Of a stretch of DNA of 59,503 nt, positions 8,372-59,503 are shown in pieces. Within the stretch, counting starts at the first letter, position 1; each line of letters opens with the position of its first letter. The notes under the pieces are model-generated. The model ran no database searches. It saw nothing but the letters and a program-made list of their open reading frames with translations, and had not been told where the DNA came from. Both the position numbers and the translations under genes were made by a program. Origin of the DNA: a bacterium (lineage in GTDB: Bacteria > Hydrothermota > DG-26 > JAUXAN01); the NCBI GenBank assembly GCA_030619885.1, contig JAUXAN010000010.1:1-59503 (forward strand), written 5' to 3'.

Positions 8372-8377
8372 TAAAAT

Positions 8378-8596
8378 ATGCCAAAAAAAGATATGATCCA
8401 GGTTGAAGGTGTTGTGGTAGATGTACTTCCAAACGCTATGTTCAGAGTGAAATTAGATAATGGATATATAGCGCTATGCCATGTGTCGGGTAAGATGAGG
8501 ATGCATTTCATCAGAATATTGCGCGGTGATAGGGTATCGGCTGAACTTTCCCCTTATGACTTGACAAGGGGAAGGATAGTTTATAGATTGAAGTGA
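8378..8596 (+). CDS. infA: Translation initiation factor IF-1
   Basis: A 72-residue OB-fold protein of standard length, with [67 protein letters not shown]-1 binds the ribosomal A site with IF-2 and IF-3 during initiation. No Shine-Dalgarno sequence precedes ATG 8378, and the promoter -10 is only seven bases away, so the mRNA is probably leaderless. It opens the cluster infA-rpmJ-rpsM-rpsA; rpmJ follows after one base. This fits the common infA-rpmJ-rpsM order of bacterial ribosomal operons. Confidence 0.97.
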
Positions 8597-52640: not shown

Positions 52641-52835
52641 ATGCCAAGGATAGCAAGAATTGTAATACAAGGCATTCCTCATCATCTTACACAGAGAGGC
52701 AATTACCAACAAATAGTTTTTCAAGACAAAGAGGACATCTTTGGCAGAAAAAGAATAATAATTTTGTTTATTTTAATAACCGTGCTTGGTGTGACCCAAG
52801 TGTCAAAGCTTACAGCAGTATTAGATAGTTCTTAG
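52641..52835 (+). pseudogene. REP-associated tyrosine transposase (RAYT) N-terminal remnant
   Basis: The first ~33 codons read MPRIARIVIQGIPHHLTQRGN followed by YQQIVFQDKED, the N-terminus of RAYT/IS200-like Y1 transposases (usual MPRxARxVxPGxPHHVTQRGN). The first His of the HUH pair should come later and is missing. After codon 33 the frame turns into unrelated residues and stops at 52835, so the gene is broken. A REP-like GGGACAGCGCCC lies 60 bases upstream. Confidence 0.75.
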
Positions 52836-55452: not shown

Positions 55453-55471
55453 TATTTTCGCAAACTCTTAA
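55316..55471 (+). pseudogene. RAYT C-terminal remnant
   Basis: From 55319 the frame reads LKGLFYGSDKFIDEMERKYG and VKRFHTKRDRLKKT, a stop at 55421, then KGKPKREPSPIFANS. It matches the GSDEFIxxLExxxG and RGRPKK-type end of RAYT transposases. The stop and the absence of the catalytic part show that it is dead. Confidence 0.55.
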
Positions 55472-55484
55472 CCCTATTACTTTA

Positions 55485-56258
55485 TTACTTGAATTTTGAA
55501 AAATACGCATCAATTTCGGGTCTTAATTCTATACCTACTCTTTCAAAACAATTTAATAATTCTTCATAGGCACCACCATTCCCAAGAAAGTCCCACAATT
55601 CTTCTGCGACTTTTAACTCATTATCCAAATCTAACATACCTTTCAATGTCCATCTTTCATAAGGTCTTGGTTCGTATGGATTGTAAGGAATCGCAATATA
55701 TGACTTTACCTTTACATTTGGATTTTTCGCTAAGAAAATTGCTATCCATTCTAACAATGTCCTTTTGAAATCTTTAAAATTGCTAATATTTGGTTTTGCT
55801 GTTTTCAAGTCAAATAAATACACTGTTCCATCCGCACTTTGAACAAACAAATCCACTTTTACAGTTTTTAATTTGTTCATTGCACCCTTGTTGCAAACTT
55901 TTCTTATCCTTTCGATTTCTTCCGCCTTATTTGGATTTTTTCCAATTGTAAGTTCATTCATAATACGTTGAATTTCAGACTGGGCTTGTTCGCTAATAGT
56001 ATCACCAACCACATACTTTTTTTGTGCAAATTCAAAGTTCAAACTTGCCAAAGTTTCCGCAACAGGTTCAAAAATAGATGTACCAAAAGTAGTGTTTAAT
56101 GAGTGGATAAAGGAAAATAATGCCATTCTATCACGACCGAGTAAACGATAATGAAAAGGCATATGACTCGTTTCTGGCTTATATGTCTGAAACTTTTTCC
56201 GTAGGCTATCTTTGATAGTATTCTCGATTAATTTTATTTGTTCTTTTGTAAGCGACAT
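55485..56258 (-). CDS. TdeIII-like type II restriction endonuclease
   Basis: A 257-residue protein resembling the TdeIII restriction enzyme family (PFHYRLLGRDRMALFSFIHSLNTTFGTSIFEPVAETLA). A PD-(D/E)xK-like core is visible in TVKVDLFVQSADGTVYLFDLKTAKPN, where the first Asp, then Asp-x-Lys, would hold the metal. It begins one base after the methyltransferase stop, with its ribosome site (AAAGGAGA) inside that gene's end, so modification is made before restriction. The family name is from memory of motifs; the target site is not predicted. The GC content is lower than in the housekeeping genes, as is usual for mobile R-M systems. Confidence 0.8.
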   Translation of the reverse strand: MSLTKEQIKLIENTIKDSLRKKFQTYKPETSHMPFHYRLLGRDRMALFSFIHSLNTTFGTSIFEPVAETLASLNFEFAQKKYVVGDTISEQAQSEIQRIMNELTIGKNPNKAEEIERIRKVCNKGAMNKLKTVKVDLFVQSADGTVYLFDLKTAKPNISNFKDFKRTLLEWIAIFLAKNPNVKVKSYIAIPYNPYEPRPYERWTLKGMLDLDNELKVAEELWDFLGNGGAYEELLNCFERVGIELRPEIDAYFSKFK

Positions 56259-56259
56259 T

Positions 56260-57864
56260 TTATCTCTCCTTTAGATGAAATATTATTTCTGCATAGGCAT
56301 TAGATCTATCTTTTTCCACTCTATTCAACACAGGCCGCTTAAATTGATTAACGATTTTCATATCTGATAACTGTGCAATATCAGGATAAAGATTAAATTT
56401 GTCATTGGCTACTAAAAAGATGTCATAATCTTTTTGAAGATATTTTTTACAATTTCTTAAAGATTCCGCTATACCTTTAACATAAGAATCCCTTGCTTCT
56501 TTTCCCTGACCTTTAGAAAGGGGTCCGATTTCTAATTCATCTTTTCGATCAAATCCAAATATTTCATATGAATATGCATGCTGTTCGTGATAATCAATAA
56601 GTCCGACATAAGGTGGACTTGAGAAAATACCTTTAATCTTTTGTTTCAGCAATAATTCTGCAAACTCTGAATTTCTTTTTTTGATTTCTTCATAAATATC
56701 TATCGTTCTGCTATCTCCTGTCAAACATATTTGAAATGTTTTGGTTCTTAATCTATCAAATTCTTTAAGGCGATTTAATGTGTCTATGGTATATCTTTGC
56801 CACCATCCTTTAATGGAAAAAATCGGTTTGCATATTTTACCGTGTTTCTTACAGTAATATGTAGTTGTGACAGGCTCTTTTAAGGTTGCTAAATCAGCAT
56901 GAGTAGTTGCTCTGCAAGAGCGAACGGTTCTGCTCAAGATTATTGCTAATATTTTTTTAATATCCTTATTATCTACTTTTTTCAATTCCTTAAATACAAA
57001 ATCGATTTCTCCTCTCACTGAAAATAAGAACCACATATCTAAGAAAGAATTATTTTTATCTTGTTTAATTTTGATTTTATATTTTTCCACTAAATCATAA
57101 TAAATGCTTAAAATTTTTTGTTCTTTATCTTTTGTATATTCTTGTTCGTTAATCTCACCTTTCCTTACTTTTCTTTTATATTCTGGCGATGGAAAATACT
57201 TGTAGTTAAATTTTGAAAGTTCTGAAAGTAGATGTTCTTCAAAAGCAGTATTATTTTTTGTTTTCTGAAAATTTTCCAAGTTTAATGTGATATTGCGAAT
57301 AGCTTCCCTAATCTCTGGGATATTATGCTTTTCAACCTTAGTGTTACTAATCATTGCATTAAACGCAGAAATATCTACACCAATGGCATGCATCCCTAAT
57401 TCGTTTGTTTGAACTAATGTTGTTCCACTTCCACAAAATGGATCCAACACAATATCACCTTTATGAAAATATATTTGTTGCTTGAATTCATCGGTATGAG
57501 AATCAAGAAAATATTCTACTAATTGAGGAATAAATTTACCTTTGTACGGATGTAACCTATGAACATGTTTTGTTCTTTCCGATTCTTTGTATTCTACAAA
57601 TGACAAATGCCAATTAAGGTCTTCACCTAATTTCTTTTTCCACTGTTTTTCTTTGTCATAAGAGTCATAATATTCTTTTAATTCTTCAATATTTATCAAG
57701 GGATTCCCATTACTTACATACTTTCTTATTCTTCCGTATTGCAGTAAATACGAAATATTAGAAATTGTAACTTTACGATTTAAATATTGCGAAGCCCATT
57801 CGCTGGCTTCTCTTAAATTGATTAGTTTTTTTTCTTCTTTTTCAAAAAATGTTAGTTGGTTCAT
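56260..57864 (-). CDS. DNA N4-cytosine-type methyltransferase of a restriction-modification pair
   Basis: A 534-residue DNA methyltransferase. A small N-terminal helical part (LREASEWASQYLNRKVTISNISYLLQYGRIRKYV, helix-turn-helix-like) precedes HPYKGKFIPQLVEYFL. The SAM motif DPFCGSGTT is at 141-149 and the catalytic SPPY motif at 416-419 (FSSPPYVGLIDY), typical of N4-cytosine enzymes. The SAM motif precedes the catalytic one with 270 residues between, an order of the alpha kind. The insert carries a CKKHGKICK segment. It is followed after one base by the endonuclease. ATG 57864 lies downstream of an attC-like element. Confidence 0.88.
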   Translation of the reverse strand: MNQLTFFEKEEKKLINLREASEWASQYLNRKVTISNISYLLQYGRIRKYVSNGNPLINIEELKEYYDSYDKEKQWKKKLGEDLNWHLSFVEYKESERTKHVHRLHPYKGKFIPQLVEYFLDSHTDEFKQQIYFHKGDIVLDPFCGSGTTLVQTNELGMHAIGVDISAFNAMISNTKVEKHNIPEIREAIRNITLNLENFQKTKNNTAFEEHLLSELSKFNYKYFPSPEYKRKVRKGEINEQEYTKDKEQKILSIYYDLVEKYKIKIKQDKNNSFLDMWFLFSVRGEIDFVFKELKKVDNKDIKKILAIILSRTVRSCRATTHADLATLKEPVTTTYYCKKHGKICKPIFSIKGWWQRYTIDTLNRLKEFDRLRTKTFQICLTGDSRTIDIYEEIKKRNSEFAELLLKQKIKGIFSSPPYVGLIDYHEQHAYSYEIFGFDRKDELEIGPLSKGQGKEARDSYVKGIAESLRNCKKYLQKDYDIFLVANDKFNLYPDIAQLSDMKIVNQFKRPVLNRVEKDRSNAYAEIIFHLKER

Positions 57865-57934
57865 ATCTGATTACCTTCGATTAATTTTTAAATATAACAT
57901 ACCTTGATATTTGCTTTTTTCCCTGCCCGCAATT

Positions 57935-58033
57935 GCAGATAACGGTTCCAGCATATACGACGTTGCGACCGTAGGGAGCAATATCCCGAAGGGCAAGGGC
58001 GTAAGCCCGCAGCGTATATGTTGTGTTATCTGC
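57935..58033 (-). repeat. attC-like imperfect palindrome
   Basis: Ends GCAGATAAC (57935-57943) and GTTATCTGC (58025-58033) pair perfectly. Inside, CATATACG (57952-57959) pairs with CGTATATG (58013-58020). The spacers between the two stems differ (8 and 4 bases). The centre has a GGGC/GCCC hairpin. Two stems with an unequal spacer and a variable head is the layout of integron attC sites. On the minus strand it lies after the 58069-59271 gene, as attC should. It could instead be a MITE. Confidence 0.5.
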
Positions 58034-58068
58034 TGTTGCTTCATTTTAAAATATATGAAAATCCTTTG

Positions 58069-59271
58069 CTATTTATTGTTTCCCATTGTAGGAACTATTT
58101 TATTTGTTTTCAAATCGACCATCTCCATCATTTTTGCTAAATCCAGTGGTTTTAATTCTTGTTTATAGATTTTTTCGCAAATAGTAGAGGTAGTATTTAT
58201 AAAAAGATTAGGTGTATTATCTTTCTCTCGATACTCTATTATCACCTGCTTTGACTCTGTAAGAAGCCAAAGATGAAATAAAAACTGTGAAGCATGGAAT
58301 CGACGTTGATCTGGGTTTAAATTAGATACATCTTTCACCACAAGTTTTGCTTCATCAGCATTCTTTTTGAACTCTACTATTTCAAATCCTTGAGATGCTA
58401 AACCAGTAGCAAAATTTAGGAACGCTGCATCATCTCGTACTTCAACGGTAGGAGAAAATCTATTGATTTCCTTTAAATTATCTATGAAAAATAAAGTATG
58501 AGCTAATCTTATGGCTCTATAGACATCGAAAATGGTTTGCACTGCTTGCAGAAGTTCGCTCCTAGAAAGTCGACTCTCTTTTATATTTGGAGTCTTACCA
58601 TACCAGCAAATAATTTTACTATTTTCAATTCTTGCTGTATGATGATAAGCAATATTTCGCCATTGGTTCAATGTAATGTTCCATGGCGGTGGCATGAAAA
58701 GTTCAGCATATCCACTCTCTTGTTTCAATTTATTTACAATTATACCTAAATCTAAAGAATCGATATCTTCCAAAACAGTTTTAATCCCATTTGCAATCCT
58801 TATTTGATGAAGAAGTGCTTTTAAATAAGGCTTTGTCAAACCTTCTATTATATCTCCAATATTTCTAAGACATTCGTGCAAAAATTCTTCAATTTCAAGA
58901 TTGTTCTTATCAATTTCTAAATATAGAACACTCCAGTATTTTGATAAGCTCTGAAGAATTTGAGGTTGCCATAGAACACATGATTTAAAACAACTTTGTG
59001 TATCCTTTGCTTTTGCTGAACGATATGTATCCAGGCACTTCTCAAATTTTCTAAAAAACCAGTTTTCTTTTTGAAGTTTTAATAGATTTACACTCTCTGG
59101 AACAAGAGTTTCTATAGCAAACTGCTCAAGAATATCTTTATTATCAAAATATGGTTCAAGTGATTCAATTACAGATTCTTTTATTTCCTCTAGATTCATC
59201 CCTGATTCGATCAGTTTTAGCAAAGGATTTTCTTCTTTTACTTTTGATATGACTTTTTCATATTTTTTCAT
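58069..59271 (-). CDS. Unknown mostly alpha-helical protein with HEPN-like R-x4-H motif
   Basis: A 400-residue soluble, helix-rich protein that I do not recognise as a named family. The segment TLNQWRNIAYHHTARIE contains Arg205-Asn-x3-His210, the R-x4-H form of HEPN ribonuclease motifs. KIICWYG follows it. The C-terminal half (AAFLNFATGLASQGFEIVEFKKN, FHASQFLFHLWLLTE) looks like a separate alpha/beta part. ATG 59271 has AAGGTG upstream. It sits beside a restriction-modification pair and between two structures ending in GTTATCTGC, which fits a mobile defence gene. The HEPN reading rests on one short motif, so the function is only suggested. Confidence 0.6.
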   Translation of the reverse strand: MKKYEKVISKVKEENPLLKLIESGMNLEEIKESVIESLEPYFDNKDILEQFAIETLVPESVNLLKLQKENWFFRKFEKCLDTYRSAKAKDTQSCFKSCVLWQPQILQSLSKYWSVLYLEIDKNNLEIEEFLHECLRNIGDIIEGLTKPYLKALLHQIRIANGIKTVLEDIDSLDLGIIVNKLKQESGYAELFMPPPWNITLNQWRNIAYHHTARIENSKIICWYGKTPNIKESRLSRSELLQAVQTIFDVYRAIRLAHTLFFIDNLKEINRFSPTVEVRDDAAFLNFATGLASQGFEIVEFKKNADEAKLVVKDVSNLNPDQRRFHASQFLFHLWLLTESKQVIIEYREKDNTPNLFINTTSTICEKIYKQELKPLDLAKMMEMVDLKTNKIVPTMGNNK

Positions 59272-59296
59272 GTTAAAATCACCTTAAGGAGCAATG

Positions 59297-59340
59297 GCAG
59301 ATAACTTGTGCATTTATGAAATAAAGGTTCGTAAATGCAC
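59297..59340 (-). repeat. Half attC-like structure upstream of the HEPN-like gene
   Basis: On the minus strand: GTGCATTTA, a 15-base loop, TAAATGCAC, two bases, then GTTATCTGC (59305-59297). The last nine bases equal the end of the element at 57935-58033, in the same orientation. The outer left arm is missing, replaced by transposase-derived sequence. Confidence 0.5.
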
Positions 59341-59371
59341 TCGAAACTGGTATATTAGACGAACTATTTCG

Positions 59372-59503
59372 TAAATTCATTTCATTGCAGACGAGCAAAA
59401 TATTTCTAAAAAGGGACATAATTTCTTCTTTCATTGATGATACAAATTTCGCTATAGTTGAATGATCAGGTTCTGACCATCCTGAAAGTGCTATAAATGT
59501 TAC
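59372..59503 (-). pseudogene. IS1182-type transposase fragment
   Basis: From the window edge the minus strand reads VTFIALSGWSEPDHSTIAKF, then VSSMKEEIMSLFRNILLVCN and EMNL. This is the N-terminal domain of IS1182/IS5-like transposases (ALSGxxxPDHSTIAxF, then LFxxxLxxCxEMxL). After codon 44 the similarity stops where AIDG should follow, at about 59371, so the gene is cut there. It was probably truncated when the neighbouring segment arrived. Confidence 0.7.

Follow-up and report, generated by a model that had tools for sequence, protein, structure and literature searches.

Canonical-IntI integrons and CALINs, among them the class 1 integron and the Vibrio superintegron, combine an attI site with attC sites built of R and L boxes, a crossover at G↓TT (the arrow marking the point of exchange) and circularisable single-gene cassettes that read in one direction. 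In the inverted integrons of Treponema denticola, the integrase reads towards attI and the cassettes. The I2 helix of IntI is held to be the step that enabled integrons, and a study of how this helix arose points to missing intermediates (PMC7790495). Integrons are also described from archaea, with attI downstream of the integrase gene and attC sites that overlap between the domains; IntegronFinder was the means by which their integrases were detected, and these are stated to possess the IntI-specific domain (Ghaly et al. 2022, PMC9668308). Spirochaetota IntIs in reverse orientation are reported in the same work (PMC9668308).

Here we describe a contig of the Hydrothermota bacterium GCA_030619885.1 (JAUXAN010000010.1), the whole 59,503 nucleotides of which are called the window below. 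We read its right-hand end as the attI end of a chromosomal integron in which a truncated insertion sequence has taken the place of the integrase gene and for which the cognate integrase is one without I2, and we assign this reading a probability of roughly 0.85. The locus and its relatives share with canonical-IntI integrons all of the features listed above. They differ from them in an integrase that lacks the I2 insertion and usually reads towards attI, and in attC sites with spacers of usually 1 and 5 nt and an L stem of 8-13 bp in which no extrahelical base was seen. Archaeal hosts, an attI downstream of the integrase gene and attC overlap between domains are common to the integrons of Ghaly et al., from which the integrases described here are set apart by the missing IntI-specific domain. 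The direction of the integrase is that of the inverted T. denticola integrons, although the Spirochaetota IntIs are regarded as canonical. XerA/XerD-like recombinases, including the TnpF ('xerD') found beside tet(X), resemble our integrases in their best family match, and TnpF is 54.7% identical; in contrast, the integrases described here stand at attI with cassettes and many carry an extra N-terminal domain. As proteins, such I2-less relatives are not wholly new, given that the insertion has been called 'not fully conserved' in an integron-like subgroup (Smyshlyaev et al. 2021, PMC8138268). No description of integrons with I2-less integrases was found in the open-licence literature.

The features of the window that enter the argument are the following.

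55464 to 57942, minus strand: gene cassette 2 (the R-M pair), its own 3' attC lost, after 55464
55485 to 56258, minus strand: TdeIII-type type II restriction endonuclease (PF09520, 4e-93)
56260 to 57864, minus strand: DNA N6/N4 methyltransferase of the R-M cassette (PF01555, 4e-17; PADLOC MTase_II, 1e-226)
57935 to 58033, minus strand: attC, 99 nt, with R''/L''/L'/R' boxes and paired stems
57943 to 57935, minus strand: R' box of this attC, G↓TTATCTGC
57943 to 59304, minus strand: gene cassette 1, 1362 bp, opening with TTATCTGCC, followed by its gene and attC and closing with G
58033 to 58025, minus strand: R'' box of this attC, GCAGATAAC
58069 to 59271, minus strand: cassette 1 gene, 400 aa
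59305 to 59372, minus strand: attI-like primary recombination site, ending in AAATGCACAAG↓TT
59371 to 59503, plus strand: internal insertion-sequence piece, provisionally IS1182-like, at the expected integrase position and the contig end

The motif GTTATCTGC occurs three times in the window (57935-57943, minus; 58025-58033, plus; 59297-59305, minus), where 0.27 copies are expected by chance. Two of these form the outer stem, 9 bp long, of the palindrome at 57935-58033, and the third (59305-59297) opens cassette 1. The initial annotation had described a 99-base two-stem palindrome with unequal spacers, and this is what we find: the inner stem measures 8 bp, or 11 bp if one A.C mismatch is allowed. 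Because of that mismatch, a strict attC finder requiring an inner stem of at least 9 bp missed the site. Taken alone, the fold energy of the palindrome single strand is unremarkable (z -1.55). The interior comprises L'' (CAACATATACG), a variable terminal structure, L' (CGTATATGCTG) and the spacer GAACC before R', such that the minus strand reads GTTATCTGCC, the gene at 59271-58069, GCAACAGCAGATAAC, A, CAACATATACG and onwards to CGTATATGCTG, GAACC and G↓TTATCTGC, and then the R-M pair. AAC/GTT and both stems are present, and the RYYYAAC...GTTRRRY ends are matched in part (GTTATCT), as had been noted for the R' box; this departure from GTTRRRY would be accounted for by the use, throughout the lineage, of another attC (GTTA..) with an I2-less integrase. 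A search for the cassette pattern (a GTT+6 start, a matching R'', an inner stem and the next GTT) returned exactly one cassette in the window, cassette 1. A chance origin of the GTTATCTGC copies and of the cassette geometry was rejected, since three copies were reached in 0 of 100 shuffles and a cassette in 0 of 20.

The order of gene, palindrome and R-M pair was correctly read by the initial annotation, but the right-hand structure is an attI and neither an attC nor a second palindrome copy. Sequence comparison places the predicted crossover between G59305 and T59304. The stretch 59372-59305 recurs at 99% identity in another contig of the same genome (C44:598-672), preceded there by the C-terminal remnant of an integrase and followed by a cassette starting with GTTAGCTGAAATG, as against GTTATCTGCC in the window. 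The identity of the two copies, in the window contig (C7) and in C44, ends at the cassette boundary, and all differences between them lie to the cassette side of the crossover. Furthermore, a homologue lies directly downstream of an integrase in Dehalococcoidia AH-958-E16, with 50 of 78 aligned columns identical (~64%), and terminates in ATGAG↓TTGTCC. The attI of the window is truncated on its integrase side, at 59371, by the internal insertion-sequence piece, which is 100% identical to positions 1254-1386 of an insertion sequence in C36. A contig devoid of an integrase, an R-M cassette devoid of an attC and an insertion sequence at the right edge would also suit a CALIN relic, in which the likeness to attI is fortuitous and both palindromes are leftover attC sites; as the C44 copy of this sequence adjoins what is left of an integrase and the Dehalococcoidia homologue adjoins an integrase, we consider such a relic very improbable.

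The insertion-sequence end GAGACTGTCGAAAAA has seven copies genome-wide, each of which directly adjoins the GTT or AAC of an attC-like box; these lie in C36 (L005 positions 1521, 8373-8490, 9509 and 10212), C44:146 and C58:106814. The insertion sequence and a short derivative, both provisionally IS1182-like, seem from these junctions to target attC sites. A further remnant in the window, at 52642-52760, was judged by eye to resemble the N-terminus of a REP-associated (IS200-like) transposase, starting with MPRIARIVIQGIPHHLTQRGNYQQIVFQ.

The integron-type cassette proposed by the initial annotation is borne out by the attI, by cassette 1 with its matching R' and R'', by the attC, by the second cassette and by the same type of attC in other arrays and genomes. 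The start of cassette 1, GTTATCTGC, is an exact match to R'' (GCAGATAAC), and the first bases pair with the cassette's own R'' box, as they do in a circularised cassette. No test supports the description of its gene as HEPN-like, and the 400-aa protein has no family match in Pfam, NCBIfam or PADLOC. A fold predicted from the single sequence is mainly helical at low confidence (pLDDT 42). Of the 146 other genomes searched in the phylum, only two yielded homologues, and a search among plasmids found none. A defence or accessory role would be a plausible conjecture, since the gene sits in a short self-contained cassette beside an R-M cassette.

The R-M cassette is far more widely shared. Over 2.5 kb it is 93% identical in Bacteroidales UBA5762 (L067) and 90% identical in Actinomycetota STD1_113 (L052), with proteins 88-93% identical to those of the window, and both of these cassettes retain a 3' attC of the window type. 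In L052, the cassette adjoins an attI-like site that has an integrase fragment next to it, and the identity of the cassette with the window starts at the TT of G↓TT, that is, at TTATCTGCAATTGCGGGC. Common to different phyla and ending at G↓TT, the R-M cassette thus qualifies, on its sequence, as a mobile cassette.

Exact copies of the 22-nt attC core were found in 34 stretches from 33 other genomes of many phyla and both domains. The archaea include Methanosarcinales, Methanophagales, Methanoperedenaceae, Thermoplasmata, Nanoarchaeota and Nitrosotalea, and the bacteria Stahlbacteria/WOR-3, Marinimicrobia, Acetothermia, Bacteroidales, Chloroflexota, Actinomycetota, Latescibacteria and Syntrophaceae; the viral contigs searched contained none. 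NNNNAAC and GTTNNNN boxes flank most copies of the core, and the letters of the boxes differ from copy to copy. A conserved core scattered through many genomes might also denote a MITE-like mobile repeat with no recombination site, for which the initial annotation had named single dispersed copies with no genes between them as the hallmark. The core is present at four places in the genome under study (three full and one partial; two in C36, inside an array), where the outer boxes differ and pair and genes lie between the copies. Across genomes, the boxes vary by copy and agree with the first bases of the cassette upstream, the flanks are not constant and the whole R-M cassette moves along, leaving the MITE-like repeat the least credible of the explanations weighed here.

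Most of about 35 well-formed sites have an R''-L'' spacer of 1-3 nt and an L'-R' spacer that is 3-5 nt longer, with 1 nt and 5 nt, respectively, being usual. An extrahelical base was looked for in the L stem (8-13 bp) of these sites and no bulge was found, the comparison being with one clear canonical control drawn from class 1 integron regions, an aacA attC with spacers of 5 and 6 nt and a one-base bulge. Adjoining the inner end of the L stem is a conserved unpaired ACTTC, which might act in place of extrahelical bases. An imperfect palindrome of about 300 nt (L005:7965-8270; AACGGCTCGGCGGGTATG to CTATACCCGCCGAGCCG), which immediately precedes an attC in C36, is possibly a large attC with further insertions.

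The linkage between I2-less integrases and these sites is seen in Methanosarcinales B64_G16 (L101) and Acetothermia UBA7950 (L103), where an I2-less integrase, attI, a cassette and an attC of the window type share a single contig. The order of I2-less integrase, attI and cassette is conserved in G035, G008, G046 and G077, where the attC sequences are other, and on a 1.92-Mb Methanoperedenaceae contig the integrase is followed by an attI reading TTCGGATATGAATGAG↓TTATACGC. The integrase usually reads towards attI. Among 11 related I2-less integrases of the phylum with enough sequence, nine have an attI-like motif 76-156 nt past the reading frame, within a searched interval of 330 nt for which the background is 0.054. 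In the genome under study, C70 carries an I2-less integrase remnant, an attI and a cassette with the attC geometry of the window; attI is accompanied by an integrase in other genomes and by integrase remnants in C44 and C70, the window being the place where the integrase is missing. The search for an intI gene suggested by the initial annotation yielded degenerate integrase remnants but neither an IntI above the family cut-off nor any intact integrase, in a genome of 2.46 Mb and 86 contigs that is 97% complete. The four remnants lie at C70:26918, C44:733, C52:188 and C72:130, from which the genome is judged to hold several decayed integrons.

It might be argued that these are ordinary cassettes whose mover is a canonical, I2-bearing IntI that acts in trans or has since been lost, and that the I2-less recombinases are Xer-like enzymes that are nearby by chance or for another job. 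Indeed, canonical IntI1 recombines diverse archaeal attC sites (PMC9668308), and the Bacteroidetes MAG G077 encodes a canonical IntI alongside an I2-less integrase that has a separate attC array (C172 and C285; L112, L113). However, canonical IntI exceeds the family cut-off in only one of the 33 genomes with this attC and in none of 60 genomes of the phylum, and I2-less integrases share contigs with this attC type and lie immediately upstream of attI in many genomes. We therefore regard a canonical IntI as an unlikely agent. The cognate integrase is very probably, on comparative grounds, a tyrosine recombinase that lacks the I2 helix of IntI. Comparison of sequences establishes the anatomy of the site, the boundaries of the cassettes, the sharing of cassettes and attC across phyla and the adjacency, on single contigs, of I2-less integrases to attI and to attC sites of this type.

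The integrases on contigs with window-type attC sites, along with the C70 remnant, lack the IntI-specific insertion of about 40 aa that contains the I2 helix. The interval from the GKGxxxR motif to the HxLRH box is mostly 58-61 residues in I2-less integrases, against 100 in three canonical IntI and 62-63 in two Xer proteins of the genome under study. The IntI model TIGR02249 scores 221-236 against them, with a cut-off of 265, and aligns in two pieces, about 1-180 and 233-315. Their best NCBIfam family is NF040815 (recomb_XerA_Arch, 'site-specific tyrosine recombinase/integron integrase') and the best PDB match of an I2-less integrase is Vibrio IntI (2a3v), of which chain residues 174-237 are unmatched. 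Phylogenetic analysis sets I2-less integrases and IntI apart from Xer with full support; within this group, the tree leaves a single clade of I2-less integrases and a position on the stem of IntI undistinguished (AU p 0.30). One genome of the phylum (G179) and a Candidatus Stahlbacteria MAG have integrases that are 100% identical, by which the phylum would probably correspond to Stahlbacteria/WOR-3. Many I2-less integrases have an extra N-terminal domain with the motif RWHPExKxWSFP (aligned in A2 for L017, L081, L083, L080, L109, L111, L114, L116 and L118), which bears a weak likeness to HARP (best E 0.001, below the Pfam cut-off). The HARP domain binds branched DNA. The extra domain could stand in for the I2 helix by recognising DNA that is branched or folded.

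The same system is present in cultured Bacteroidota. On complete plasmids from Chryseobacterium SNU WT5, Pontibacter kalidii and Rufibacter tibetensis, I2-less integrases precede arrays in which small genes bear attC sites of this kind. With IntegronFinder 2.0, a complete integron in Bacteroidetes proper was reported for Salinibacter only (PMC9024848), which fits the idea that an I2-less lineage is being missed. The tet(X) regions examined were L119:4070-6091, L122 and L123:3977-6330 (pHH1107, pJAT2044 and Empedobacter brevis pSE1-3-20kb). Here, tet(X3) stands after an integrase named 'TnpF/xerD', the TnpF mentioned above, and an attI-like GCCACTTG↓TTATGTGCC. For tet(X2), R' (GTTATGTGCC) matches R'' (GGCACATAAC), an attC is present and a catB cassette lies ahead. 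Judged by these boundaries, tet(X) looks like a cassette of the I2-less integron type, and the system of the Bacteroidota plasmids appears to include tet(X2). A tetX-catB11-IS91-XerD cluster has been published, also for this Empedobacter strain, in passages that do not describe it as an integron (PMC11194056).

The I2-less integron that we favor would operate as follows. Each cassette spans from the TT of one G↓TT point to the G of the next. When the attC folds into a hairpin, the first bases of the cassette (TTATCTGC) would pair with the R'' (GCAGATAA) of that same cassette. An I2-less integrase would recognize the folded attC, which shows no extrahelical base in the outer L stem, and cut at G↓TT, the unequal spacers (usually 1 versus 5 nt) setting the choice of strand. 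The circular cassette with the 400-aa gene would thereby have been joined at attI, with the R-M cassette behind. What we infer is that the I2-less enzyme carries out the recombination, that the single strand folds in vivo and that the spacers act in this way. No bulge was seen in the L stems, and a Vibrio attC deprived of its extrahelical bases keeps a strand preference that depends on the central spacer (PMC2727003); it would therefore be coherent for the enzyme to lack the base-docking helix and for its sites to lack the base.

It is tempting to extend this reading to a widespread bacterial and archaeal integron lineage that never possessed I2, with integrases that are Xer-IntI intermediates and attC cassettes without extrahelical bases, and which also captured tet(X) in Bacteroidota; we place this at even odds. 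Most of the comparison genomes are metagenome bins, in which binning errors are possible, and a pure artefact is made less likely by the 1.92-Mb Methanoperedenaceae contig and by the Bacteroidota plasmids, which are complete. Standard integron searches probably overlook the I2-less lineage. If I2-less integrons are real, the origin of I2 would become directly testable, part of the many attC clusters 'without integrase' would be explained, and a gene-sharing network across bacteria and archaea would have been missed by current tools. The apparent tet(X) cassettes would, in turn, tie this lineage to a clinically important resistance gene.
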